A stretch of 64,000 bases of DNA from Lacticaseibacillus rhamnosus. Its GTDB lineage: Bacteria > Bacillota > Bacilli > Lactobacillales > Lactobacillaceae. Under the pieces are notes generated by a model that was given only the letters and a program-made list of their open reading frames with translations, did not search any database and had not been told where the DNA came from. The position numbers and the translations under genes are program-made. This document shows, piece by piece, positions 983-62,865 of the stretch (position 1 is its first letter; each line of letters begins with the position of its first letter). The stretch lies in the NCBI RefSeq assembly GCF_900636965.1, contig NZ_LR134331.1:2914001-2978000 (forward strand). The letters run 5' to 3'.

Positions 983-998
983 TGTTCCACGAGAAACA
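983..998. promoter_or_regulatory. parS-like ParB site (one mismatch)
   Basis: TGTTCCACGAGAAACA, 15 of 16 positions of the ParB consensus TGTTNCACGTGAAACA. It is intergenic and begins directly after the acetyltransferase stop codon. Confidence 0.55.
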
Positions 999-1056
999 TT
1001 AAGCGCTTATTTTTCAAAACGGGCACTTATTGAAAAGTGGCCCACGAATCATTTAA

Positions 1057-1101
1057 AAAGCGAATGAGTCTCCTTAAACTTTAGGAGAACTCATTCGCTT
1101 T
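1057..1101. terminator. Bidirectional hairpin between convergent genes
   Basis: A 17-bp inverted repeat (AAAGCGAATGAGTCTCC and its complement, with one bulged base) separates the acetyltransferase gene from the convergent SpoIIM-like gene. Short A/T runs flank both sides, so it could serve either direction. Confidence 0.65.
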
Positions 1102-1158
1102 AGTTTATGTTGCCAAAAAAAGATTGACACTCGGTTCAAGACAAACATCCATCAGCTA

Positions 1159-1782
1159 TCAATGAACAATCAGTCGCAAAAGTACCGGGGTCACAAAACC
1201 TTCAATCAACGCTGCCACTGCAATCATGGGTACGACGATGCAAACATATTGTAAGGCAATGGCTTTGACATCCAGCGGTGACTTTTCATAATGAGCATCA
1301 GAAAAGAAACGCTTGATTGAATGACGCAGTGCGCGATTGACTTGTGCTGCTAGGGTCACACCGATAATCAAAGCGCTCATTTCAAGAATGCCGTGTGGTA
1401 GAATTCCCAAAGCAAATGCGGCTAGTGCTCCGCTGAGACCCATCTTGGCTGCATAAACGCCCATGACTAAGCCGACTGACGCACATGTCACCACATACGA
1501 AAGCCAATAAAGAAATGGAATCGGGATCATACTTATTAGCATCAGCCCCAAAGCAACGCGTTCATTATTAAGCAAGATCATCCAAAAAGCATGGAGATTG
1601 TCTTTTGGTTCTGCAAATTTGTCTGACAATCCGGTCACAATTTGGTGAATAAATGTCGGATTCGCATCCATCACAATGTAGGTAAGTAAGCTCACCATAA
1701 TGGTAATCGCAATAAACAAGAGCCAGCCTACCAACAAATAATGCCCGATAATATCCAAGTGATACGTCAACCGTTTTTTCAT
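1159..1782 (-). CDS. SpoIIM-like (DUF95) integral membrane protein
   Basis: A 207-residue protein with about five hydrophobic segments and the hallmark of the stage II sporulation protein M family, GILPHGILEMSALIIG, around residues 125-140. SpoIIM works in spore engulfment in Bacillus, but non-spore-formers carry homologues next to MoxR/DUF58 genes, as here, where their role is unknown. The gene is divergent from the MoxR operon, with a 215-bp shared upstream region. The start is supported by GGAGGGG placed correctly before the ATG. A role with the neighbouring ATPase is inferred from context only. Confidence 0.75.
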   Translation of the reverse strand: MKKRLTYHLDIIGHYLLVGWLLFIAITIMVSLLTYIVMDANPTFIHQIVTGLSDKFAEPKDNLHAFWMILLNNERVALGLMLISMIPIPFLYWLSYVVTCASVGLVMGVYAAKMGLSGALAAFALGILPHGILEMSALIIGVTLAAQVNRALRHSIKRFFSDAHYEKSPLDVKAIALQYVCIVVPMIAVAALIEGFVTPVLLRLIVH

Positions 1783-1997
1783 ATGGTCCCCTCCAATCAG
1801 TCTGCTTATGGGGTCAGGCTATAGTATACCCTACGCTGAAATAAGGCGCTATTGAGAAGATTACCGCCAACAACATCAGCATGAGTTTGACTGATTGCCA
1901 ACACTGCAGGAAGAAGCAAAAAGGTTGCCACTGACGGCCTCAGCTTGTGACTTGCTGTTTCCACAATTTTACTGAATAATGGCCGCATGGAGGTGTC

Positions 1998-2942
1998 GTG
2001 ATCGTGATGGAAATCAGCGAAGCACAAGCAACTTTTAACGCAGCGCGCAAACAGGTCGAACAAGTCGTCGTTGGTAAACCGATGCCGATTTTGCTGGCAT
2101 TTACCGCTTTATTAGCTGGCGGCCATGTCTTATTTGAAGATATTCCCGGGGTTGGTAAAACCACCCTCGTTCAAACCATCGCCAAAACCTTGGACATACC
2201 CTTTTCCCGAATTCAGTTTTCGCCTGATATGCTGCCTAGCGATGTTCTAGGTACCTCAATCTTCAATCGGGCCACCAATGCATTTGAATTTCAACGCGGG
2301 CCAATCTTCACAAGCGTTTTGCTGGCCGATGAGATCAATCGCGCCACACCAAGAACCCAAGCAGCGTTACTGGAAGCCATGGGTGAAGGCCGAGTTACTG
2401 TCGATGGCCGCACTTATCCGCTTCCGCCTGACTTTTTCGTCATGGCAACGGAAAATCCCACCGATTACGCCGGCACCTATCCGTTACCAGAAGCGCAATT
2501 AGACCGTTTCATGTTACGCCTATCCCTGGGGTATCCCGATGCGGCCGCAGAAAAAAGTCTCCTTGTCAGTCCTGATCGGCAAACCATGATTGCAAATTTG
2601 AAACCCGTCCTTGATGCGGCTAGCTTGGCTGCAAGTAAACAAATCGTGCCAACCATCACAGTCACTGACGCCATTGCCGATTATGTCCTGAAACTGGTTC
2701 AAGCCACCCGCGCCGATCAGCGAATTCGACTAGGCATCAGTCCGCGTGGTGGGATTGCCTTAGTGTCAGCAGCAAAAGCGTTTGCCCTGCTCAACGGACG
2801 ATCCTTCGTCAAGCCCTCTGACATTCAGCATTTGGTCATTCCCGTCTTTGGCCATCGCTTGATTCTTAAAGACCCGACTGTAAAATCAGCCGATCTGTTA
2901 ACCGAGATTCTTCAGCATACCGCCGCTCCAATTCGGAGGTGA
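1998..2942 (+). CDS. MoxR-family AAA+ ATPase
   Basis: A 314-residue AAA+ protein of the MoxR group, thought to act as a chaperone that remodels or activates partner proteins. Walker A is GVGKTT at residues 51-56, Walker B is LLADEIN with Asp111-Glu112, and the ATENP sensor segment follows. It opens an operon with a DUF58 protein four bases downstream and a transglutaminase-like membrane protein, a classic MoxR arrangement. GGAGG at 1989-1993 is followed by three in-frame candidate starts (GTG 1998, GTG 2004, ATG 2007). The first is rather close to the ribosome site, so the true start may be one of the other two. Confidence 0.9.
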   Translation: MIVMEISEAQATFNAARKQVEQVVVGKPMPILLAFTALLAGGHVLFEDIPGVGKTTLVQTIAKTLDIPFSRIQFSPDMLPSDVLGTSIFNRATNAFEFQRGPIFTSVLLADEINRATPRTQAALLEAMGEGRVTVDGRTYPLPPDFFVMATENPTDYAGTYPLPEAQLDRFMLRLSLGYPDAAAEKSLLVSPDRQTMIANLKPVLDAASLAASKQIVPTITVTDAIADYVLKLVQATRADQRIRLGISPRGGIALVSAAKAFALLNGRSFVKPSDIQHLVIPVFGHRLILKDPTVKSADLLTEILQHTAAPIRR

Positions 2943-2946
2943 ACCC

Positions 2947-3939
2947 ATGCATTGGCGTAACGTTTTTCTGAACAGTGCCCTTGTCGCCATTTTTGGCTGC
3001 CTAATCTGTTTTGGCATGGCGTTTAATTCGCCGACGAGTTGGTTTGTCAGCGAGTTTGTGTTCGTGTTGTTGCTGCTCCTCGTTCTTCCCTTATTACTAC
3101 CATTGCGACGGCGCCTTAAGTTTACCGCTGACAACCCCACTTTAATTGCCAACCGGCCAGCTCGGCGTTTCTTTACGCTGACGCACGGCAAATGGCTGCC
3201 TAATTTAATTTTATTAGATGCTGCTAAAACCAGCACTTGGCACCTTCCCAGCGGTCAGCGAACAGCCAGAATCACGTTACAATTACCCCGCGGTGTTTAT
3301 CGCCAACTTCCTTTCAGCGTGACCGTGACCGATTGGTTTGGTTGGTTCCGCAAAACACTACCCTTACAGCTCACGACGCCGCTAACCGTGGGCCCTACCC
3401 GTCAGCCTGAAGCTGCTGCGCGGATGGCCGACCATTTTGTTCAAAAAATGGCCGCTTCGGAAGCAGGTCTGCCAAGTGATCGGATCAAAAATTTCCGTGA
3501 TTATTTCCCGGGTGATAACATTCAGCAAATCGCCTGGAAAATCAGTGCCCACGCTGATTCATTAATCGTGCACGATGATGAACATGAAAGCCAGACCGCT
3601 TGGACCTTGCTGCTCATCATCAGTCCTTCACTGTCTGTTGAGGCGGGACTAAGTTTGTTTGCAAGCTTAATGGATACCGGAATCTTTAGTGGGGATGGCT
3701 TTTTGCTGGATCAGCGGCTCACGCGTGTTTTTCGTGGTCAACAAGATGCTTTGCTTGCAGGGTTTGAACCTAAGGGCAGCGCCAATGTCGAATGGCTGCA
3801 TGACTTATCCGCCCCGGGTCACCAACGCGCCTACCTAATTCTCGCTGCCAACACTGCAACCGCCGTCCCGTTTCAACAAGTACTTGCTCCGGCTGTGACA
3901 ACCGTGGCAACACTGTCAGGAGGTGGCGACCATGCCTAA
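2947..3939 (+). CDS. DUF58-domain membrane protein
   Basis: A 330-residue protein with two N-terminal membrane helices (about residues 8-25 and 32-52) and a cytoplasmic part with the DUF58 signature DRIKNFRDYFPGDNIQQIAWKISA (only the core is diagnostic: R-x-Y-x-x-G-D, then I-x-W). DUF58 proteins are vWA-like and almost always sit beside a MoxR ATPase; their biochemical role is not established. The start has a good GGAGGTGAACCC leader. The end overlaps the next gene by eight bases, suggesting translational coupling. Confidence 0.85.
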   Translation: MHWRNVFLNSALVAIFGCLICFGMAFNSPTSWFVSEFVFVLLLLLVLPLLLPLRRRLKFTADNPTLIANRPARRFFTLTHGKWLPNLILLDAAKTSTWHLPSGQRTARITLQLPRGVYRQLPFSVTVTDWFGWFRKTLPLQLTTPLTVGPTRQPEAAARMADHFVQKMAASEAGLPSDRIKNFRDYFPGDNIQQIAWKISAHADSLIVHDDEHESQTAWTLLLIISPSLSVEAGLSLFASLMDTGIFSGDGFLLDQRLTRVFRGQQDALLAGFEPKGSANVEWLHDLSAPGHQRAYLILAANTATAVPFQQVLAPAVTTVATLSGGGDHA

Positions 3940-6097
3940 GTGGCTGCAACGACTTTTAGCAGTTTTGTTATCATGGTGGCTACTTGCGCTTTTCTTAGAA
4001 CCTTTTGCTACTATCAATCCAATCGCCCACCCACGCGCATTAATCGTCTATATCCTGATGATGAGTCTGATTGACTTTTTGGCCGTGCTACTACCGCGCC
4101 AATGGCCATGGTGGCTGCTATTGGGCTGCGGCACGACAATCGGTGGGCTTTGGGGCGTACTGCCGCTGAAGCAGCCATTTGGCGTTTCGTGGTTCACGGC
4201 GTATTTACACACCTTTACCAGTGCAACCGGAAAATTCGTGCAGGCTGGCGGCGTCGATGTTCCAACCGTCCTCAGCATGACGCTGGTGATCACGTTGGTA
4301 GCTTTTCTGTTGCTGTTAACGGTTGTGGTTCGTTTCTATCCTGGCGCTATTGCCATCGTTCTTAGTTATCTGGTGGCTGTGCACATTTTTAACGGCAGCG
4401 AATTAACCATTCAATTTATCCAGTTGGCTTTGGTAACCGGTTTGATGGCGATGCTCCATCTTTATGCTGATCATTGGCGCCCGTTCTTACTGGGATGTGT
4501 CTTCATAAGCGGACTAACGCTTGGCCTCGCTTGGCTTTCATCGGCGACCCCACTAAATGATCAGCTGGCAAATGTGTCGATTCCTTTTCGTGACCGGTTA
4601 AATCAGCGTGGTTTTTATGCCGGTATTGAGACTTATATCAACGGCCCCGGACGAACGGGCTTTACTGAAAATAGCCGCGTTTTGGGAGGACCGGTCTACG
4701 ATGACCCCACTCCGGTTTTCACGGCAACCAGTGCTAAAGCCAGTTATTATCGCGTTGCCGTTGATGCAGAATATACCGGTACTGGTTGGCAGGCTGGTGC
4801 TGATCAAAACCAGAGTATGCCATTAGACGGTGCCACCATGCGCGACTCGGCGGCTACTATCGATTACGGGCCTGCCACAAGTACGGCCTTAACTTTCAAC
4901 GGTGGTAAAACCTATTTACCGCTTCCTTATGGTCAATTGACCTTCACCGGCGGCCAACCCGATCCCACGACCGATTTTTTGCTCAATCCGGAAACCCGCC
5001 GCATGCAAACAACCGACCAAGCACGTTTTCAGCGATTGGACATTCAGGTGCAACCAAAACAGATCTCAGCAGCACAATTGGCCGCGGCGACCAGTTCCCG
5101 TCAAAAGGTTGCGTCCCGTTATCTACAATTGCCACGCACCCTGCCAAAAAGGATCAGAACACTTGCCAAAAGAATCACCGCCAAGGCCACGACCCCATAC
5201 GAAAAGGTACTGGCTGTCCAAAATTATCTCAAATCAGATCCACGCTTCACGTATTCAAAAACCGATGCACGCCGCACCCCGCCAACCCGGGACTATGTGG
5301 ATTATTTTCTTTTTGATTCGCCCATCGGTTACTGTGATAACTTCTCCTCGGCAATGGTTGTACTATGTCGCAGTATCGGCTTGCCAGCGCGCTGGGCTAA
5401 GGGATTCAACACTGGCACATTGCTCGGTGGTTCCGGAAATCAGAAAAGATACGTGATTCGCAACAGCAATGCCCATTCATGGCCGGAAGTTTACTTCGAT
5501 AACTTAGGCTGGCTGCCGTTTGAACCAACACCAGGCTTCAGTGACCCGGCAACTCCCGATGAAAATGTTTCGCCTCCAAGTCCCAGTAGCAGCGGCACTG
5601 AAAGCGTTCAGCCGTCCAGCACTAGCAATTCATCCTCGTCCAGTTCGCGTGTGTCCGCCAGTACAGTGTCCAAACAAACGAAACGACAATCTCGGCCGTC
5701 TCTCAACCGCCTGAGTTGGCTAAAAAAATCATTGTTCATCATCTTATTAGCTCTACTGTTGATAAGTGTCTGGCAGTTACCAGCGCTCGTCATGCTGATA
5801 TTAGGAATCGGACTGGGATCGACAAACTTTTCGGCGCGTTATCGCATACTTCTTCGGGCGTTACGTTGGGTCAAGAAACGACCCGTGAACCAGTCGCTTG
5901 ATGATTATGCTCAGGCCATCGATAAACGATTAGGCCAGCAAGCGTATATGTTTAACTTAACCAAGGCTTATGAAGAAACAGTTTTTGGCAATCTGCCGGT
6001 TAACACAGCCATATTGCGACCTCATTGGAAAGCACTCACTAAGCAACTTGTACATGATCGTTATTGGTGGCAGCGCTCAAAAAAGCATAAATCATAG
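3932..6097 (+). CDS. Transglutaminase-like multi-pass membrane protein (TgpA/YebA type)
   Basis: About 721 residues: several N-terminal membrane helices (to about residue 200), a large external region with a transglutaminase-like core, a Ser-rich linker near residues 550-580, one more membrane segment and a short cytoplasmic tail. Catalytic Cys468 lies in GYCDNFSSAM and His515 in NAHSWPEVYF. The third position is in GWLPFEPTPGF, where many transglutaminases have Asp and this protein has Glu. I chose the ATG at 3932 because AGGAGG lies just ahead of it; a GTG at 3923 overlaps that ribosome site. It is the last gene of the MoxR operon. A function in cell-surface protein processing or cross-linking is inferred from the fold. 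Confidence 0.85.
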   Translation: MPKWLQRLLAVLLSWWLLALFLEPFATINPIAHPRALIVYILMMSLIDFLAVLLPRQWPWWLLLGCGTTIGGLWGVLPLKQPFGVSWFTAYLHTFTSATGKFVQAGGVDVPTVLSMTLVITLVAFLLLLTVVVRFYPGAIAIVLSYLVAVHIFNGSELTIQFIQLALVTGLMAMLHLYADHWRPFLLGCVFISGLTLGLAWLSSATPLNDQLANVSIPFRDRLNQRGFYAGIETYINGPGRTGFTENSRVLGGPVYDDPTPVFTATSAKASYYRVAVDAEYTGTGWQAGADQNQSMPLDGATMRDSAATIDYGPATSTALTFNGGKTYLPLPYGQLTFTGGQPDPTTDFLLNPETRRMQTTDQARFQRLDIQVQPKQISAAQLAAATSSRQKVASRYLQLPRTLPKRIRTLAKRITAKATTPYEKVLAVQNYLKSDPRFTYSKTDARRTPPTRDYVDYFLFDSPIGYCDNFSSAMVVLCRSIGLPARWAKGFNTGTLLGGSGNQKRYVIRNSNAHSWPEVYFDNLGWLPFEPTPGFSDPATPDENVSPPSPSSSGTESVQPSSTSNSSSSSSRVSASTVSKQTKRQSRPSLNRLSWLKKSLFIILLALLLISVWQLPALVMLILGIGLGSTNFSARYRILLRALRWVKKRPVNQSLDDYAQAIDKRLGQQAYMFNLTKAYEETVFGNLPVNTAILRPHWKALTKQLVHDRYWWQRSKKHKS

Positions 6098-6105
6098 CGC
6101 GAGGT

Positions 6106-6121
6106 TGTTTCACGTGGAACA
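6106..6121. promoter_or_regulatory. parS site (full consensus match)
   Basis: TGTTTCACGTGGAACA. Its complement reads TGTTCCACGTGAAACA, a complete match to the ParB consensus. It lies in a 546-bp gene-free stretch. Confidence 0.7.
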
Positions 6122-6194
6122 CTCGGTTTAATCTTTTTCGCCACGAAACCCAGCTCATCCATTCCTTTGCGCCATTTAGGAAAATCAGCATAAA

Positions 6195-6262
6195 AGCCCG
6201 GTCATCACGCCCAAGGCCACCTATGCTCCGGTTTCTAACCGGGCTGGCTCGCGCTCACTAAA
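6195..6262. repeat. Dispersed 68-bp structured repeat, copy 1
   Basis: About 60 of 68 bases are the same as 58311-58378, same orientation. The ends AGCCCGG and CCGGGCT (about 45 bp apart) can pair into a hairpin. It lies between genes. I do not recognise it as a named element. Confidence 0.7.
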
Positions 6263-6352
6263 TTGCCGGTTACAGTCGAAAAGCAAAAAATTTTCTTGTG
6301 AATTTTCAGTTTAGGTTATAAGATAGATAAGCAACGTCTTAGCTTAAGTTGC

Positions 6353-6368
6353 AGTTACACGTGAAACA
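6353..6368. promoter_or_regulatory. parS-like site (one mismatch)
   Basis: AGTTACACGTGAAACA, differing from TGTTNCACGTGAAACA only at the first base. Intergenic. Confidence 0.6.
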
Positions 6369-6463
6369 GAACGCAAACAATTCAGCCACTTATCATAATC
6401 CCTTTTTTCTAAATGAAACAAGCACTCACAACCCTTGATAAATCAACGGTTGCGAGAAAAAAC

Positions 6464-6493
6464 TTGCACTTACTAATAAAAAGCGCGTATGAT
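6464..6493 (+). promoter_or_regulatory. Candidate promoter of the glycosyltransferase gene
   Basis: TTGCAC at 6464-6469 and TATGAT at 6488-6493 with an 18-bp spacer. This would give a leader of about 145 bases ahead of the gene. Confidence 0.5.
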
Positions 6494-6500
6494 AATATAA

Positions 6501-6635
6501 ACAGTTTCTCAGAAGAACCAAAAACTGTTATGACCCCGCTACTATTTTTTTAGTAGTTGTGCCACTTCGACTGGACGCTGCAGTCAGCTCGTAACGTACT
6601 CAGAAGAAAGGGGGGGAGCCGCTGATCTTAGCGGC
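6501..6635 (+). promoter_or_regulatory. Structured 5' leader with four hairpins
   Basis: Four short stems follow one another: ACAGTTT/AAACTGT (6501-6528), CTACTA/TAGTAG with a T6 loop (6539-6556), GACTG/CAGTC (6569-6585) and GCCGCT/AGCGGC (6618-6635). The last lies between the very strong ribosome site AAAGGGGGGGAG (6607-6618) and the start codon at 6644. With that stem formed, the spacing falls from 25 to 8 bases. CTCAGAAGAA occurs twice, once in the first loop and once just before the ribosome site. No known riboswitch class is recognised. Confidence 0.45.
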
Positions 6636-6643
6636 GAACACTT

Positions 6644-7753
6644 ATGAAAGTTATGATCGTTCTAGAAAATATCGTCATGGATGGCGTTAAACGCGCTTCA
6701 ACCGTTTTAGGTAACGACCTCGTCAAGCACTACGATGTTAGTTTTTATACTTTAGCAGATGCCCCTGCCTACTTTGAGTTGGACGCACCTCTGCTCATCG
6801 CACCGCGCCCAACCGATCCTAAACTTTTAAACTTTTTTGGTAGTGACCCATACACCCACTATCATGACCAAATTGCGGATTTGATCACGACAATTCGGGA
6901 TCAGCACTTTCAAACAGTTATCTTACCAGCCGGTTTAACAACGAGTTTTGCTCCGCTGATTAAACGGGCTTTGCCAGACGTTAATCTCATTGGCTGGATG
7001 CACAACAACTACGCTACTTACATGGAAGATTACTATGTCCAGATGCAAGCTGAGTTTGAAGGCGGCTTGCAAGCTGTCGATACACTCGTTACGTTAACCG
7101 AAAGCGATTTGAATTCCTATAAGCGTTTCAATCCGCGTACCGTTAAAATCTACAATCCGCTCACCCTTGTTCCTACTGGTGAAGCTGATCTAAACGCCCA
7201 CCGCATCGCCTTCACCGGCCGAATCGCCATCGCCCACAAAGGAATCGATTTTTTGCTTGAGGCCGCCGCTTCACTTCCGGACGACTGGAAGATCGCAATT
7301 GCCGGCGCTGGAACCGATGAAGACATGAAAAACTTCTATGACCTGATCGACTATTTTAACGTCAGTGACAAGCTTATTTATCAAGGACCGCTAAAAGATA
7401 AGGCTTTGCGTGATCATTACCGTGCCGCTTCAATCTTCGTATCCACGTCGCGTTGGGAAGGCATGCCGCTGGTTATCGGCGAAGCTATGGCCTCAGGTTT
7501 ACCGGTTGTTGCCATGGAAAATACCGGTTCCCGCGAATACCTTGGCAACAACGACTATGGCCTGCTGACCAAAGCGCAGGATGTCCCGGATTTTGTTGCT
7601 AACCTCAAGAAAATGATTAACCAAACCGATTTGCGCCAGCACTACGCCCATCAAAGTTTGGAACGTGCCAGCCACTTTAGCCCGGAAAACATTGTGTCGC
7701 AGTGGATGCCGATTATTGAGCACCAACCAACACACGTCTCAATTGCCGGATAG
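6644..7753 (+). CDS. GT4-family glycosyltransferase
   Basis: A 369-residue GT-B fold enzyme of family GT4. The C-terminal nucleotide-sugar half shows AFTGRIAIAHKGIDFLLEAA, and the retaining-enzyme motif EGMPLVIGEAMASGLPVV (E-x7-E) lies near residues 270-287. The N-terminal acceptor half starts with a short Rossmann strand (KVMIVLENIVMDG). It would transfer a hexose from a nucleotide sugar to a glycan, lipid or teichoic-acid acceptor; the acceptor is not evident because no other cell-wall genes adjoin. It is monocistronic, with its own terminator and an unusual structured leader. Confidence 0.85.
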   Translation: MKVMIVLENIVMDGVKRASTVLGNDLVKHYDVSFYTLADAPAYFELDAPLLIAPRPTDPKLLNFFGSDPYTHYHDQIADLITTIRDQHFQTVILPAGLTTSFAPLIKRALPDVNLIGWMHNNYATYMEDYYVQMQAEFEGGLQAVDTLVTLTESDLNSYKRFNPRTVKIYNPLTLVPTGEADLNAHRIAFTGRIAIAHKGIDFLLEAAASLPDDWKIAIAGAGTDEDMKNFYDLIDYFNVSDKLIYQGPLKDKALRDHYRAASIFVSTSRWEGMPLVIGEAMASGLPVVAMENTGSREYLGNNDYGLLTKAQDVPDFVANLKKMINQTDLRQHYAHQSLERASHFSPENIVSQWMPIIEHQPTHVSIAG

Positions 7754-7791
7754 TTAGCAGTACAGTTCTCCAAAAGTTACCATGCTTCATC

Positions 7792-7828
7792 AAAAAAGCA
7801 CTCACGGAAAATCCGCGGGTGCTTTTTT
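7792..7828 (+). terminator. Intrinsic terminator of the glycosyltransferase gene
   Basis: AAAAAAGCAC and GTGCTTTTTT arms with an inner ACGG/CCG extension, ending in a T6 run. Confidence 0.8.
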
Positions 7829-7856
7829 GAGTGAATTAGATTATAGAAAGCTTGTA

Positions 7857-7872
7857 CGTTCCACGTGAAACC
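7857..7872. promoter_or_regulatory. parS-like site, first of three
   Basis: CGTTCCACGTGAAACC: the 14-base core GTTCCACGTGAAAC is intact and only the outermost bases differ. Confidence 0.6.
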
Positions 7873-7889
7873 TATTGTTGATGACAAAA

Positions 7890-7905
7890 AGTTCCACATG
7901 AAACA
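7890..7905. promoter_or_regulatory. parS-like site, second of three
   Basis: AGTTCCACATGAAACA: two mismatches to the consensus, one in the central CACGTG. Confidence 0.45.
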
Positions 7906-7922
7906 CCTAAACCGAAGATGCT

Positions 7923-7938
7923 TGTTTCATGTGGAACA
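7923..7938. promoter_or_regulatory. parS-like site, third of three
   Basis: TGTTTCATGTGGAACA; the complement has one mismatch to TGTTNCACGTGAAACA. The starts of the three sites are 33 bp apart, about three helical turns. Confidence 0.5.
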
Positions 7939-7964
7939 GTTGTGTCACTTGGTAGGAAATCACA

Positions 7965-9359
7965 TCAATTCTTACCGACTGCAGCCGCTTTAGGAATTGG
8001 CTCTTGGTTTGTCATGACTGCTGGTGAGAACAGTCGCTTGATCAACTCATCTGGCAGTTGGTGCTGCCGGCGAAGAAGTTCAGGAATGGCAATGTGGGTT
8101 TTAAGACTGGTCTTAACGAGTTTGGTTGTCGCTTCATAGCCAAGGTACGGACTAAGAATCGTTGCGCTAATCGCCGAGTGTTGCACATTTTCATCAGACT
8201 GCGCTTCGTTGACGGTTAATCCAGTCACGCAATTCGTTGTCAAGGTGTCAATGCCTCGGGCTAAATAGCGCTCGCCTTGCAACAAGTCACGGAAAATAAT
8301 CGGTTCAAAGGCATTTAGTTCCAACTGCCCTGCTTCTGCTGCCATACTAATCGTTAAATCCTGCCCGATAACCTGAAAAGCAATCTGATTGACGACCTCA
8401 GGGATGACCGGATTCACCTTCCCCGGCATAATCGAAGACCCTGCCTGTTTCGCCGGTAAATGAAGTTCATTCAAACCAGCTTGCGGACCACTGCTCAGCA
8501 ACCGCAAATCGTTAGCAAACTTAGATAAATCCGTCGCCAACCCCTTCATTGCTCCGGAAAAGGCAACTAAGACATCACAATTCTGAGTGGCATCGATCAA
8601 ATCATCAGCTGACTCAAGCTTTAAGTCAATGAGCCGGTTAACCTGGGACACAATGTGCGCGCGATAATAAGGAGTCGCGTTCAACCCGGTACCGATTGCC
8701 GTCCCCCCTAAATTGACCTGGCGTAAATCTTCCGCCGCTCGCGTCAACCGTTTTTGGTCGCGCTGGAACAAACTGGCATACGCATGAAAACTATGACCAA
8801 ATGTAGTTGGCACTGCATCCTGCAATTGTGTGCGCCCGACTTTAACCACGTCCGCAAACTCGTCTGCTTTGACCAACAACGACTTAATTAAAAAGGTCAA
8901 GGCTTGCTGCAATGGCGGCAAAGCTTGCAAAGCCGCCATTTTCCCGGCTGTGGGATAAGTATCATTCGTTGACTGACTCTGATTCACATCGTCATTCGGG
9001 TGCACCGGCTCAGCGGTATGCTGACTGGCCAAGTTGGCAATGACCTCGTTAACATTCATATTAACCGAAGTCCCGGCACTTCCTTGAATCGCCGGCGCCA
9101 CCAGTGCATCACGATGTTCACCCATCAACAAGCTGTTACATGCCGCAACAATTGCTTTCGCTTTAGCGGCTGACAATGTCCCGCCAGCTGCATTCACTTG
9201 TGCCGCCGCCTTTTTAATGATAATCAGACTTTTAAAAAGCAAAGCATCGGTCCGTTCATGACTAATTGGAAAATTCGCCAGTGCGCGGGTCGTGTGGATC
9301 CCATATAAAACATCCTCATCTACTGCCAGCTTGCCAATACAATCTTCCTCGATACGCAT
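7965..9359 (-). CDS. aspA: Aspartate ammonia-lyase
   Basis: A 464-residue enzyme of the aspartase/fumarase superfamily, which would convert L-aspartate to fumarate and ammonia. The opening RIEEDCIGKL...YGIHTTRALANFPIS follows the AspA pattern rather than the class II fumarase one. The superfamily signature GSSIMPGKVNPV is at about residues 307-318 and the substrate loop GSAGTSVNMN at about 93-102. The length is normal. I start at the ATG at 9359 because AAAGGGAG sits six bases upstream; an in-frame GTG further up lacks such a site. A class II fumarase remains possible. Fumarate production could link to the malate locus beyond the IS element, but no shared transcription is seen. Confidence 0.8.
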   Translation of the reverse strand: MRIEEDCIGKLAVDEDVLYGIHTTRALANFPISHERTDALLFKSLIIIKKAAAQVNAAGGTLSAAKAKAIVAACNSLLMGEHRDALVAPAIQGSAGTSVNMNVNEVIANLASQHTAEPVHPNDDVNQSQSTNDTYPTAGKMAALQALPPLQQALTFLIKSLLVKADEFADVVKVGRTQLQDAVPTTFGHSFHAYASLFQRDQKRLTRAAEDLRQVNLGGTAIGTGLNATPYYRAHIVSQVNRLIDLKLESADDLIDATQNCDVLVAFSGAMKGLATDLSKFANDLRLLSSGPQAGLNELHLPAKQAGSSIMPGKVNPVIPEVVNQIAFQVIGQDLTISMAAEAGQLELNAFEPIIFRDLLQGERYLARGIDTLTTNCVTGLTVNEAQSDENVQHSAISATILSPYLGYEATTKLVKTSLKTHIAIPELLRRQHQLPDELIKRLFSPAVMTNQEPIPKAAAVGKN

Positions 9360-9655: not shown

Positions 9656-10862
9656 CTTGCAACTTTTTTCCCCAGTTTACAATTCAAGTGCAACACCCTG
9701 ACGACTAGACCATAAAGGCCATGAAGACCTATTCTTGTTAGTGCTAGCTAAACAAGAAAGCAGGAATCTTCATGACCCACTCTCAGACTAACACCCACAA
9801 GCATTACCAACAACTCAGTTTTAGCGACCGTGCTACAATTCAGGCCCTTCAGGCTGCTGGTGACACCGCGACCGTGATTGCACAGAAGCTTCATCGCAGT
9901 AAAGCGACAATCTCACGAGAAATCACGCGTGGATCTGTAACTCAGCTCGACTCGAAGCGTCACTCGCATCAAGTCTATCTTGCGGAAACTGCCCAAGCCA
10001 TGCACGACCGTAAACGCGATAGAACCGGTCACTACGCCTTTCTTAAGACCGGCCGTGCGTTCTTCAAGGCTCTCGCCAGGGAGCTTACTCGTAAGCCGCG
10101 CGTACACAGCGTTGATAGCTTCGTACACTTCTATCGCGACCAGGGCAAGGCTTGCCCTTCAACGACAACTGTGTATCGCTACATCGACGCCGGGCTGCTT
10201 GAGCTAGACAACATGACACTTCCCAAGAAGCTCCGACGCCGCATCAAAGGCTATAAGAACGCCCACAAGCGCAAGAATAAGAAGATATACGGCGACTCAA
10301 TCGAGTTGCGTCCTGCGGCCGTGAATGACCGCACAGGCGTGGGACATTGGGAAGGCGACTTGGTCAAAGGTATTCGCTTAGCTGATGAGCCAGCATTAAT
10401 GACGCTCACAGAACGGTACAGCCGGACTGAGATCATCGTCAAGATTCCTGACTATCATGCGGGCACCTGCCTTAAAGCCTTGCAGGACACGATCGACGAC
10501 TACGGGGCCAAGGAATTTGAGAGTATCACTTTTGACAATGGTTCCGAGTTTGCCAAGTTATCAGAGATTGTTGGAACCCAGATTTACTTCGCACATCCGT
10601 ACTCGCCTTGGGAGCGTGGCACAAACGAGAACGCCAATGGACTGCTTAGGGAATTCTTCCCGAAAGGGAAGTCTCTCAGAGCAGTTACCCTGGTTGAAAT
10701 TCAAGCAGTCCAATCCGCACTGAACCATCGTCCCAGACGTATTCTGAACTATCTTCGCCCATGCGATTACTACCGATGCATGGCGTAACAGCCTAGACCA
10801 CTATCAAGAATTCGTTATCATCGTTGCACTTGACTTGAAAATTGAGGCTTGCAACTTTTTTT
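9656..10862 (+). mobile_element. IS30-family insertion sequence
   Basis: An element of about 1.2 kb around one transposase gene. Imperfect terminal inverted repeats of about 25 bp are seen at 9670-9694 and 10823-10847 (GTTGCACTTGA followed by a less conserved half, about 21 of 25 matching). Just outside these, CTTGCAACTTTTTT occurs in the same orientation on both sides (9656-9669 and 10848-10861), either as part of the ends or as a target repeat. The exact boundary is therefore uncertain by about 15 bp. The copy looks intact. Confidence 0.8.
9772..10788 (+). CDS. IS30-family transposase
   Basis: 338 residues. The N-terminal helix-turn-helix (LSFSDRATIQALQAAGDTA, then IAQKLHRSKATISREI) and the DDE catalytic core are both present: first Asp in GVGHWEGDLVKG, second in ITFDNGSEF, and Glu in NENANGLLREFFPKG. 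The family catalyses excision and insertion of the element at its inverted ends. Codon use is richer in C and G third bases than the neighbouring genes, consistent with recent acquisition. The ribosome site is weak, as is common in transposases. No frameshift or stop is seen, so it could be active. Confidence 0.93.
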   Translation: MTHSQTNTHKHYQQLSFSDRATIQALQAAGDTATVIAQKLHRSKATISREITRGSVTQLDSKRHSHQVYLAETAQAMHDRKRDRTGHYAFLKTGRAFFKALARELTRKPRVHSVDSFVHFYRDQGKACPSTTTVYRYIDAGLLELDNMTLPKKLRRRIKGYKNAHKRKNKKIYGDSIELRPAAVNDRTGVGHWEGDLVKGIRLADEPALMTLTERYSRTEIIVKIPDYHAGTCLKALQDTIDDYGAKEFESITFDNGSEFAKLSEIVGTQIYFAHPYSPWERGTNENANGLLREFFPKGKSLRAVTLVEIQAVQSALNHRPRRILNYLRPCDYYRCMA

Positions 10863-17598: not shown

Positions 17599-17614
17599 AG
17601 TTTCACGTGAAACA
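17599..17614. promoter_or_regulatory. parS-like site (one mismatch)
   Basis: AGTTTCACGTGAAACA, differing from the ParB consensus only at the first base. It lies in the region upstream of the 2-hydroxyacid dehydrogenase gene. Confidence 0.6.
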
Positions 17615-28386: not shown

Positions 28387-30441
28387 TCACCTTCGATCAA
28401 TTTTTTGAATTTCGTGCATAAAAACTTCTGTCATCACTTGATATAACTGACTATAGTGGCCTTTTTCAAAAAGCTGTATGTCCGCTGGTGAGGCAACTAG
28501 CTTGGCGCTAACTGCACTCAGGAGGGTCAATGTTTCTTGTGGAACAGGATTCGGCGTCAGCAACAGGAGAATCCGCTGCAGTTGGATCGTGCCCATGTCC
28601 ATTGCCGCTAAAGGTATCGCTGTTTTGAGATCAAACGCCCCGATATATGGGGTTGTGACACCGCGACTACTCGTGTGAATCATTGCTAAACCTGTATTCG
28701 GGATGCCAACCGGCGCTAACTCCAATCTTTTTAACAGTGCTTCTTTGACAATTGGCGGTTCAACGACAACGGTCGGTAACCGAGCAAGCATCGCATCGAT
28801 AGCAGCAGCAATCGTGGTGACCGGCTCATTCAAGTCGTTGACGGCAAAGTGTTGTAGTAACCCATCTGCTGCCATCACCATGGTTTTTAGGCTCTCAAAG
28901 GCGGTAACTGTTTGGTCCAGTGACGGTTGATTCAACGGCCGCACTTGTTTAGGTGTGGCGCGCTGAACAAGCCGGCGCACTTCCGCTATTTCCTCGCGTC
29001 CCAATATCGGAGTAATCACCAAGTACTGATGCTTAAACCCCGGCAGCGGCATGGTAGCAAGGACCAGATCGTAATGTTCAAGTTGTTGTTCCGGTAAATC
29101 ACTCACCTGAACAATCTTAATCTTACGGATTTCCGGTACCTGCACACGCAACTTTCCAGCAATCAAGCTGCCGGTTCCGGGTCCATCACTAGTAACCAAT
29201 AGCACCGCAACGGGCTTTTCTGCTGGCGCGTGATCCAAAACCGAAGCGAAGTATAAAACCAGATAGGCAAGCGCGTCGCCAGTGAAGGCTCCTTGGCCGA
29301 AAACATGGTCAGCCGCCTTTTGAACCGCTTGGTAAAGTTCAGAATAATCATCTTGCAAATGAGCAAGTACGGGATTGGTCATTGTGACACCAGACAGCCA
29401 ATCCCCTCCAGCCGTTCGTTGGACATGAGCCAGTAATGAGGAATAAAGCTGTGGGTTCCCGGAAAATTTCCCGGGAAATGATCGGGCTACTTCCCGAATA
29501 AGATCCTGAACTTCAAGGTTGATGGTTAAATCAAATTGATCAACCGGTTCGCCTGCCAACCCGCCGCGAATATTACTCAGTTCGATGGCAAGGAATTGAT
29601 AATCACCGACACGTACTTTTTCGCGGATTGTCGAATCCATCTCGGCTAGGAATTGTAGCGCCAGTTGTTGATCCTGAAACAGTCGTTCCTGATCAAAATG
29701 CTGCTGCGGTTTAACGTGATGGTCCTCACGCAATCTTCGTGTATTAATTGCAACCGTTAGTAGCACTGCTTTACGTTGATTGTCATTTAGATCCGCTAAA
29801 GCTTTAATCTGAGACAGTGCGGTGTTAGCAGCAAGTAATTCTTCTTGCGGTAACCGTTCAATGAAATAGTTCGCCACCGGATCAAAGTCTTGCTGCGGAT
29901 CGTTTAGGAAGCGAAAGAACACATACGGATTAATTTCAGCATTCAAGACGCCGACCAGAACCCGGCGAATATCACCTTCTTGTCCTTCGATCCAGATACC
30001 AGCTGCTTTTTGCCGATTCAGCTTAAGATGATATTCATTTAACGCCGGTTCGAGAATATCCAGATCTTGCTTAATCGTCGTAATGCTGACATCTACCGCA
30101 TCAGCTAAGGCTGTCATCGTCAAAGTTTCATCCGTTGTCAGCAACATCAGTGTTAGCGCACTCTGCCGCTGACTGGGATCAAAGGTGAGATCTTGCCGTT
30201 GATGTGACAAGGCTGCAGATAGACTGGCTAAATCAGCAGCTGCTCCCACAATCCGGTACGAGCTGCCATTGCCTTTGTCCAATTTCAAATTCACCGTTGC
30301 GATATCATGTTCCAGTTGCGAAAGCTCACGGTAAATGGTCCGGCGGCTGACACCCAGCTGTCGCTCCAGCTCGTCGCGGCTTATGCCGGCGGGCTGGCTC
30401 ATCATCAGTCTGATCATTTCCTGTTCACGATTCGTTAGTAA
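28387..30441 (-). CDS. mtlR: Mannitol operon activator, PRD-containing
   Basis: 684 residues: two N-terminal winged HTH units (GISRDELERQLGVSRRTIYRELS; then a second at about residues 95-130), two PRDs (about 180-390), an EIIB-Gat-like domain near 405-490 and an EIIA-Mtl-like domain at the C-terminus (AMIHTSSRG). The family activates mtl genes when one PRD is phosphorylated by HPr and the EIIA/EIIB-like parts are not. The phospho-Cys of the EIIB-like domain is missing: the loop reads LLVTSDGPGTG where CxxGxGT is usual. The start is the ATG at 30441 with GGGGCG ahead. It lies inside the operon between mtlA and mtlF. Confidence 0.9.
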   Translation of the reverse strand, partial: LLTNREQEMIRLMMSQPAGISRDELERQLGVSRRTIYRELSQLEHDIATVNLKLDKGNGSSYRIVGAAADLASLSAALSHQRQDLTFDPSQRQSALTLMLLTTDETLTMTALADAVDVSITTIKQDLDILEPALNEYHLKLNRQKAAGIWIEGQEGDIRRVLVGVLNAEINPYVFFRFLNDPQQDFDPVANYFIERLPQEELLAANTALSQIKALADLNDNQRKAVLLTVAINTRRLREDHHVKPQQHFDQERLFQDQQLALQFLAEMDSTIREKVRVGDYQFLAIELSNIRGGLAGEPVDQFDLTINLEVQDLIREVARSFPGKFSGNPQLYSSLLAHVQRTAGGDWLSGVTMTNPVLAHLQDDYSELYQAVQKAADHVFGQGAFTGDALAYLVLYFASVLDHAPAEKPVAVLLVTSDGPGTGSLIAGKLRVQVPEIRKIKIVQVSDLPEQQLEHYDLVLATMPLPGFKHQYLVITPILGREEIAEVRRLVQRATPKQVRPLNQPSLDQTVTAFESLKTMVMAADGLLQHFAVNDLNEPVTTIAAAIDAMLARLPTVVVEPPIVKEALLKRLELAPVGIPNTGLAMIHTSSRGVTTPYIGAFDLKTAIPLAAMDMGTIQLQRILLLLTPNPVPQETLTLLSAVSAKLVASPADIQLFEKGHYSQLYQVMTEVFMHEIQKIDRR

Positions 30442-58235: not shown

Positions 58236-58378
58236 TCGGCTGGTGCTCAAGCCATAACGCGTTCGCCAGCCCAGAAACCTGCACATAAGGACCTTGGTCG
58301 CAATGGCCAAAGCCCGGCCATCACGACCAAGGCCACTTATGCTCCGGTTTCTAAGCGGGCTGGCTCACGCTTAACAAA
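58236..58378. repeat. Inverted duplication containing copy 2 of the dispersed repeat
   Basis: Two arms of about 60-70 bp face each other within the metQ leader. The right arm (58311-58378) is the second copy of the 68-bp repeat at 6195-6262. The left arm is a diverged inverse copy (shared blocks GCCAGCCC, AGAAACC, CATAAG, CCTTGGTCG, ATGGCC). A long imperfect hairpin is possible, lying after the T-box terminator and before metQ. Confidence 0.65.
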
Positions 58379-58640
58379 AAAAGGCCCTGCTGAATCAAAA
58401 AATTGATTCAGCAGGGCCGACAATGTCGGGGTACCACCCTGGTTCGTTACCGTGTAACCTCTACGATGCCTGTTGACACCGAGACCGTTTAACGCAGGCC
58501 TAATGCGTACCCGACTCATCGCCGAATCCATTCCGCGGTCATTTTCATCAGACGCCTGCATCGATTTCCACCTGCCATCGACTCTCTAAAGCTGCGTTGC
58601 TGATTACTCTCCACTTCATGATGTTTCATCATTTTATCAG
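58376..58640 (-). ncRNA. T-box riboswitch, probably methionine-specific
   Basis: On the minus strand a leader shows a stem I region, a candidate specifier codon ATG at 58542-58540 (in GATGAAAATGACC), the T-box core AGGGTGGTACC at 58440-58430 that pairs with uncharged tRNA ends, and a 16-bp terminator stem (58383-58418, arms GGCCCTGCTGAATCAA and complement) followed by T7. Uncharged tRNA would favour the antiterminator and allow metQ-mtnU-mtnE to be read. Specificity for Met is inferred from the codon and the genes. Confidence 0.85.
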
Positions 58641-61665: not shown

Positions 61666-62865
61666 CTACTGTACGGTTTTATTTTGATCCAAATACCCCA
61701 ATGTCGCCGCAGCCACAGCCTTAGCCGCGATTAGAATGGCATCTTCGTCCAGCATAAAGTCAGGACTGTGGTGGGGATGGTTTGAGCCATCAGGCAGCTG
61801 GCAGCCGATGTAGAAGAAGCTGCTGGGAACCTTCTGCGCAAAATAAGCAAAATCTTCAGACGGATCCTGAACACCGGTATCCTTGATCGCCGTGATTTGG
61901 GGAATTTTGGCTGCTTTGATCGCTGTCATGGCTTGATTCGTCAACGTTGCGTCATTGATTAAAACCGGATAATTATCGTCATAATCCAGCTTGGTTTGTA
62001 CCCCAAACATGGCTTCCAACCCGTGATTCATCGTCACAATCTGCTGGTGAATTGTCTGCCGGGTACTTTCCTTCATCACGCGCACGTCGCCTTTTAACAC
62101 CACCGCCTGTTTGATGGCGTTAAATGAGCCAACTCCGTCAAACGAACCGATCGTGACGCTGGCCGTATCAAAAGGATCGATTCGCCGCGATACGATCGTT
62201 TGGAGCGCCGTGACCAAATAACTGCCAGCCACAATCGCATCGTTGCTCAAATGCGGCATGGAAGCGTGGCCGCCTTTGCCGATAATCGTATCGGTAAAAT
62301 TGGCCCGGCCAGTTTGGGTTGCGCCAGTATGATAGCCGATGAGTCCCGTTGGCATTGACGACATCACATGAACTCCGATGACATTTGTAACCCCAGCTAA
62401 GACCCCAGCTGCAATCATGCCTTTTGCCCCACCAGGCGATACTTCTTCTGCAGGTTGATGAATGATCCGAATCGAACCTGACAATTGGGTTTTAATTTTG
62501 TTCAATTCCTTGGCCAATACCAATAAGTAAGCCGTGTGCGCATCATGGCCGCAAGCGTGCATGACCCCGGGATTTTGCGATTTAAACGGGAGCTCATTAT
62601 CTTCCTGAATCGCCAAGGCATCAAAGTCCGCCCGTAACGCCAATTTCGGCCCCGGCTGCCCGCCTTCAATATCGACGTACATGCCATAACCGTCACCACA
62701 TGGCACGACTGACATATCCAACGCAGTGTAATAGGCTTTGATATAAGCAGCCGTTTGTTTCTCGTGAAACGATACTTCCGGATGTGCATGCAGATGCCGG
62801 CGAATCGCAATCATTTCCTGTTCATCGTCTTCCAGCGCCTGTAACAAGGTTGCCAATAAACTCAT
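61666..62865 (-). CDS. M20-family amidohydrolase
   Basis: A 399-residue metal-dependent amidohydrolase of subfamily M20D (hippurate/N-acetylaminoacid hydrolase type). Metal-ligand motifs are HACGHDAH at about 103-110 and HQPAEEVSPGG near 134-144; the His in IGVHVMSSMPTG and the late SEDFAYFAQKVPSSFFYIG are also typical. It removes acyl groups from N-acylated amino acids or related amides. Its ATG lies inside the end of the exporter gene (four-base overlap, GGAGGGG ahead), so it probably acts on an exported or imported amino-acid derivative; that link is inferred. Confidence 0.88.
   Translation of the reverse strand: MSLLATLLQALEDDEQEMIAIRRHLHAHPEVSFHEKQTAAYIKAYYTALDMSVVPCGDGYGMYVDIEGGQPGPKLALRADFDALAIQEDNELPFKSQNPGVMHACGHDAHTAYLLVLAKELNKIKTQLSGSIRIIHQPAEEVSPGGAKGMIAAGVLAGVTNVIGVHVMSSMPTGLIGYHTGATQTGRANFTDTIIGKGGHASMPHLSNDAIVAGSYLVTALQTIVSRRIDPFDTASVTIGSFDGVGSFNAIKQAVVLKGDVRVMKESTRQTIHQQIVTMNHGLEAMFGVQTKLDYDDNYPVLINDATLTNQAMTAIKAAKIPQITAIKDTGVQDPSEDFAYFAQKVPSSFFYIGCQLPDGSNHPHHSPDFMLDEDAILIAAKAVAAATLGYLDQNKTVQ

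Follow-up and report, generated by a model that had tools for sequence, protein, structure and literature searches.

The first 8 kb of the DNA stretch analysed here contain six short palindromes, which raises the question of whether they are chromosomal parS sites or elements of another kind. The stretch, referred to below as the window, comprises 64,000 nucleotides of Lacticaseibacillus rhamnosus (G000:C1:2914001-2978000), and the genome consists of one contig of 2,988,387 bp. A sequence-only reading had proposed that the six sites are intergenic, partly degenerate parS-like sites in an origin-proximal ParB loading zone, and that their number far exceeds the random expectation. Scanning of the window recovered all six, each being a 16-bp palindrome near TGTTTCACGTGAAACA:

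983..998, forward strand: putative parS site, core CACGAG, predicted to be weaker
6106..6121, reverse strand: putative parS site, full consensus
6353..6368, forward strand: putative parS site, intact CACGTG core
7857..7872, forward strand: first site of a putative parS triplet, intact core, mismatches at positions 1 and 16 only
7890..7905, forward strand: middle site of the triplet, core CACATG, predicted to be weaker
7923..7938, reverse strand: third site of the triplet, core CACATG, predicted to be weaker

On the better strand the sites had 1, 0, 1, 2, 2 and 1 mismatches, in the order listed, exactly as had been claimed, and core substitutions were found only at 983, 7890 and 7923. The site at 6106 was the only full consensus match in the genome. 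The intergenic placement was also correct for all six, none of which fell within a plausible gene. It was found that 983 begins immediately 3′ of the stop codon of a GNAT gene, that 6106 starts 8 bp past the stop codon of a transglutaminase-like gene, that the end of 6353 is separated from a glycosyltransferase gene by 275 bp, and that the triplet at 7857-7938 is flanked by two convergent genes. A 73-aa open reading frame over 7923 (7918-8139), which is largely antisense to a fumarase-like gene, was taken as a chance frame. In 300 dinucleotide shuffles the first 8 kb held a mean of 0.027 sites and a maximum of 1, compared with six observed, in accordance with an expected rate far below one per 8 kb.

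Four more sites with up to two mismatches were found in the window, giving ten distinct sites in total, and the zone therefore reaches past the first 8 kb to which the sequence-only reading had assigned it:

17599..17614, forward strand: further putative parS site, perfect inner palindrome, intergenic
28531..28546 (genome 2942531), reverse strand: doubtful parS-like site, within a reading frame of 693 aa
37708..37723, reverse strand: further putative parS site, intact core, intergenic
62756..62771 (genome 2976756), forward strand: doubtful parS-like site, within a reading frame of 399 aa

The position of the cluster relative to the replication origin was determined from the gene content and the GC skew. 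dnaA (PF00308) starts at base 1 of the genome, which places the cluster 66–73 kb left of oriC. dnaA is followed by dnaN, recF, gyrB and gyrA and preceded by rnpA, yidC, jag, mnmE and mnmG (all named by eye), and DnaA-box words occur on both sides of it. The GC skew was negative in 30 of the 32 bins of the window and in all five bins of the last 20 kb of the genome, and positive in all five bins of the first 20 kb and all five around +120 kb. The dnaA position, the DnaA-box words and this change of sign bore out the proposed closeness to oriC. In the whole genome, 14 distinct sites with up to two mismatches were found, 13 of them (2804276 to 2976756) within 184 kb left of oriC and one at 121739, about +122 kb. 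The sites are thus concentrated near the origin, and the even scatter that would have spoken against the proposal was not seen. At this threshold the genome gave 12 forward and 12 reverse matches, versus 4 and 2 for the reversed control pattern. A scan with three mismatches gave at least 55 forward and at least 64 reverse matches (28 and 29 for the control), which were distributed throughout the genome and could not be used to judge single sites.

The genome was also found to encode one ParB, one Noc and a ParA-like protein. A profile search with PF02195 (ParB_N) returned two proteins, at 242.8 and 244.4 kb, which belong to a gene order rsmG-noc-parA-parB at G000:C1:242795-244706 (rsmG and parA named by eye). 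Directly 5′ of parB is a 255-aa frame, which we take to be ParA from its KGGVGKTT motif. By sequence, the best solved relatives were a Spo0J chain, 6sdk, for ParB and the Noc structure 7ol9 for Noc. The recognition residues of ParB were R173, Y179, T184 and G201 in Caulobacter numbering, i.e. the parS pattern according to the rule for parS- and NBS-type residues in the consulted text of PMC7383237, from which the numbering was also anchored on the conserved GKS (170–172), N178 and R204.

Taken together, the clustering, the closeness to oriC and the encoded ParB with its parS signature support the interpretation that the six palindromes are parS sites of the chromosome and that they make up the most densely occupied segment of a ParB loading zone, or bacterial centromere, left of oriC; to this interpretation we assign a probability of roughly 0.94 as judged from sequence. 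Very probably, they serve an ordinary chromosomal ParABS system. From established ParABS biology we infer that ParB dimers would bind the 14-bp palindrome GTTYCACGTGRAAC and load CTP; the CTP-loaded ParB would close into sliding clamps and spread across the adjacent kilobases. The resulting ParB-DNA complex would be pulled by ParA and would serve as a loading platform for SMC, so that sister origins would part first. Sites with the core CACGTG would load most of the ParB, and those with CACGAG or CACATG cores would be weaker, auxiliary entry points.

To compare the sites with those of relatives, the 14 sites of the genome were masked and their flanks were matched against stretches from four relatives (G005, G006, G017 and G028). 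For 13 of the 14 sites, a corresponding site with up to three mismatches was present in at least one relative. The aligned partners of 6106, 7857 and 37708 had the core CACGTG in all four relatives. At 6353 an aligned site was present in all four, with CACGTG in three and CACACG in G017. At 983 the core was non-consensus in all four, being CACGAG in three and CATGCG in G017. The CACATG of 7890 was kept in G006 and G028, and the site was absent from G005 and G017; 7923 was kept in G006, G028 and G017 and absent from G005. A partner of 17599 was found in G028 only. As for the two doubtful sites, 28531 had two-mismatch partners in G005 and G028 within coding DNA that is 82% identical. The flanks of 62756 had no match in the compared stretches of the relatives, which lie outside the corresponding stretch, and no site with up to two mismatches was listed between the 37708 partner and dnaA in any of the four; the match at 62756 is probably due to chance.

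Pairwise identity was then calculated for 13 locus groups with 55 sequences from five species; 28531 and 62756 were left out, and one site present only in the four relatives was included. The identity was 0.50 in the 30-bp flanks, 0.59 and 0.63 at site positions 1 and 16, 0.74 and 0.85 at positions 5 and 12, and 0.90–1.00 at the remaining inner positions, values that are biased upward for the sites by the acceptance of partners with up to three mismatches. This profile indicated that it is the inner 14 bp that are under constraint as a unit. Since this lineage places little constraint on positions 1 and 16, scoring them as mismatches overstates the degeneracy of the sites. Constraint at silent positions was observed in two sites within coding DNA. 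At 121739, four of the five codons inside the site were identical in the five species and the fifth varied at position 16 only, compared with 46 of 186 amino-acid-conserved codons in the flanks. At 2880565, both amino-acid-conserved codons wholly inside the site were identical, versus 13 of 74 in the flanks. The comparison is small, and it agrees with the conservation of the sites.

The sequence-only reading had further suggested a graded set of strong and weak sites. This idea was supported in part: 983, 7890 and 7923 have core substitutions and were sub-consensus in each of the four examined relatives that keep them, but the other mismatches fall at positions 1 and 16, where constraint is weak. 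Over all loci, CACGTG was intact in every species having the site at genome positions 121739 and 2892181 and at window positions 6106, 7857, 17599 and 37708. The core was substituted in all sequences (19 of 19) at 983, 7890, 7923 and the genome positions 2880565 and 2804276. A mixed state, due to G017 alone, was seen at 6353 and at a second site that lies 42 bp (37 bp in G017) past the equivalent of 6106 in the four relatives and is lacking in the window genome. For parS1–parS10 of Pseudomonas aeruginosa, the portion of PMC4368675 consulted describes an affinity hierarchy that tracks the mismatches, with an intact CACGTG being important and core changes weakening ParB binding.

The weak cores could be decaying former parS sites, i.e. 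neutral leftovers that form no tuned set; this concerns the strength of the sites and is compatible with their identity as parS. We consider it doubtful. Turnover of sites is real, as G005 lacks two sites of the triplet, G017 lacks one and the second site past 6106 is missing from the window genome, and common ancestry alone could preserve a substitution. However, the 19 sequences of the five substituted loci all carried at most two inner changes, in flanks that are only ∼50% identical. Equally tentative is the suggestion that selection fixes the strength of each locus in a tuned array, with CACGTG sites being strong and CACGAG and CACATG sites weak, and that ParB loads cooperatively at the triplet as a single unit, in which one strong and two weak sites follow each other in steps of 33 bp, i.e. 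about three helical turns. Shared ancestry may explain the stable core pattern in part or as a whole, and the substitution at 2880565 may be dictated by the encoded protein, the site being in a reading frame.

The 33-bp steps of the triplet (7857, 7890 and 7923) were found in the window genome, G006 and G028. In G005 only the first site was present, and in G017 the first and third sites were present, 32 bp apart. A search of the family for two near-consensus sites 18–44 bp apart in register found close pairs in 19 of 397 genomes, which belong to 5 of 40 genera; the control gave no match. Within the genus, the pairs occurred in 5 of 26 searched genomes, which were exactly the five-species group, and in one other genus (g2) they occurred in 10 of 13. 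This patchy distribution implies that close parS pairs arose several times or are often lost.

Another interpretation is that the six sites belong to Noc, the nucleoid occlusion protein, rather than to ParB. noc lies next to parAB in the genome, and NBS-like sites do occur within the same stretch, e.g. at genome position 2910184. Nevertheless, the recognition residues of Noc were Q173, K179, K184 and R201 in the same numbering, which is the NBS pattern, and ParB has the parS-type R and G. The NBS is given as TATTTCCC-GGGAAATA in the consulted text of PMC7383237. The six sites instead carry arms of the GTTNCA..TGNAAC type (with AG replacing TG at 983), and none of them was among the seven distinct genome sites that matched TATTTCCCGGGAAATA with up to two mismatches. 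It is thus very improbable that they are Noc sites. Four of the seven matches lie between 2879762 and 2943465; of these, one arises by coincidence from coding sequence, another is located within a reading frame and a third is intergenic. The NBS-like match at 3502-3517 was rejected because it consists of in-frame codons of a YFPGD stretch in a DUF58 gene; its letters recur unchanged in G005, G006 and G017, and twice in G003. Apart from this, Noc-box-like sites were observed interspersed with the parS sites at window position 29465 and at G000:C1 2910184 and 2879762, and similar ones at comparable places in relatives. In G015, the side of dnaA that carries the main parS group also held 11 of the 16 NBS matches within 250 kb. 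For Staphylococcus aureus Noc, 40 of 41 loci were located within 700 kb of the origin, according to the part of PMC5540599 consulted.

We regard it as similarly far-fetched that the palindromes are operators through which a transcription factor controls the flanking genes. Intergenic palindromes would suit this role, but the flanking genes are of unrelated families, 983 and 6106 lie just past stop codons, three sites lie between convergent genes, two conserved sites elsewhere are within coding DNA, and confinement to the origin region is unexpected for an operator. Transcription terminator hairpins are less credible still: 983 and 6106 start 0 and 8 bp past stop codons and 7857-7938 separates convergent genes, but the palindrome is loopless, no T tract follows any of the six sites (by eye), a start codon follows 6353 at a distance of 275 bp, and no restriction to the origin region would be expected of terminators.

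Several other features were observed in the window. A leader of ∼155 nt (6490-6645) precedes the glycosyltransferase gene; it is nearly invariant in the five species, where the DNA before it has diverged, and it folds (z –2.0), a G-run before the start pairing with CCCC. No Rfam family matched it at E values up to 1, and nothing like it preceded the glycosyltransferase relatives of seven further species in the genus. A dispersed repeat of ∼60–130 bp at 58255-58383 and ∼6193-6256 was matched in all compared origin-side stretches except L006, one copy being just past the position of the second parS site of the relatives. A transposase gene at 9772-10788, presumably IS30-like, matched HTH_38, and its match to the integrase core (rve) was just under the cut-off. 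A T-box leader (RF00230) scored above the gathering score at 58410-58628 on the minus strand.

With the preferred parS interpretation, the system resembles Spo0J-parS of Bacillus subtilis, which has an identical 16-bp consensus and several origin-proximal sites. The order rsmG-noc-parA-parB is also common to both genomes. In B. subtilis the parAB operon adjoins oriC, whereas here noc-parA-parB is found ∼243 kb to the right of oriC, separated both from dnaA and from the parS sites on the left, so that parAB and the cluster are on opposite arms, ∼315 kb apart through oriC. No site with up to two mismatches was found near the parAB operon of the window genome. In G005, G017 and G015, parAB is likewise on the opposite side of dnaA from the main group of sites. 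A site 0.9–1.2 kb before noc was present in five other species of the genus (G001, G003, G011, G015 and G018); none with up to two mismatches was listed before noc in G005, G006 and G028, and the nearest in G017 was 6.5 kb away. The affinities of parS1–parS10 were measured in P. aeruginosa, whereas the strengths are predicted here and the triplet is in 33-bp steps. Caulobacter crescentus likewise mixes strong and weak sites among parS 1–7, of which the weak 1 and 6 are judged unlikely to be significant in vivo in the consulted section of PMC5815017; here the weak cores persist across species. In L. reuteri, parS sites at –180, –17 and +206 kb around oriC are described together with Hi-C patterns in the portion of PMC10197239 consulted, i.e. 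three sites compared with 14 here, which are mostly on one side and clustered.

All 30 genomes of the genus that were searched had matches, with a forward sum of 349 versus 101 for the control. There was no excess over the control in G014 (3 forward and 5 reverse versus 4 and 6), and the excess was weak in G023 (5 and 7 versus 5 and 2) and G020 (10 and 7 versus 6 and 4). Distinct sites near the origin lay left of dnaA in G005 (10 of 13), G015 (11 of 16) and G017 (9 of 17, with 6 of the 17 scattered far from the origin). The one-sidedness is not general, as G003 and G001 carry sites on both sides of dnaA. The glycosyltransferase was 94% identical in Lacticaseibacillus chiayiensis and 93% in L. 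zeae. No site with up to two mismatches was found in stretches of 10–20 kb around the glycosyltransferase relatives of G002, G004, G009, G016, G023, G026 and G029 or the transglutaminase relatives of G013 and G027, nor in stretches of 4–5 kb around five loci with relatives of the genes in G003, G018, G011 and G020. All 14 loci being free of sites, the cluster at these genes was seen in the five-species group only; these 13 genomes have parS-like sites elsewhere. Among the literature matches listed, no title or abstract opening dealt with parS in Lacticaseibacillus, and the table of Livny et al. (2007) may include it.

The sites themselves are expected biology. Less ordinary are three features: parAB lies far off, on the opposite arm; three of the sites form a tandem triplet; and the distribution of cores predicted to be strong or weak is conserved. 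In these food bacteria, the five-species set presents putative parS sites that have been gained or lost singly or retained at fixed addresses, and among which the sites predicted to be weak remain weak.
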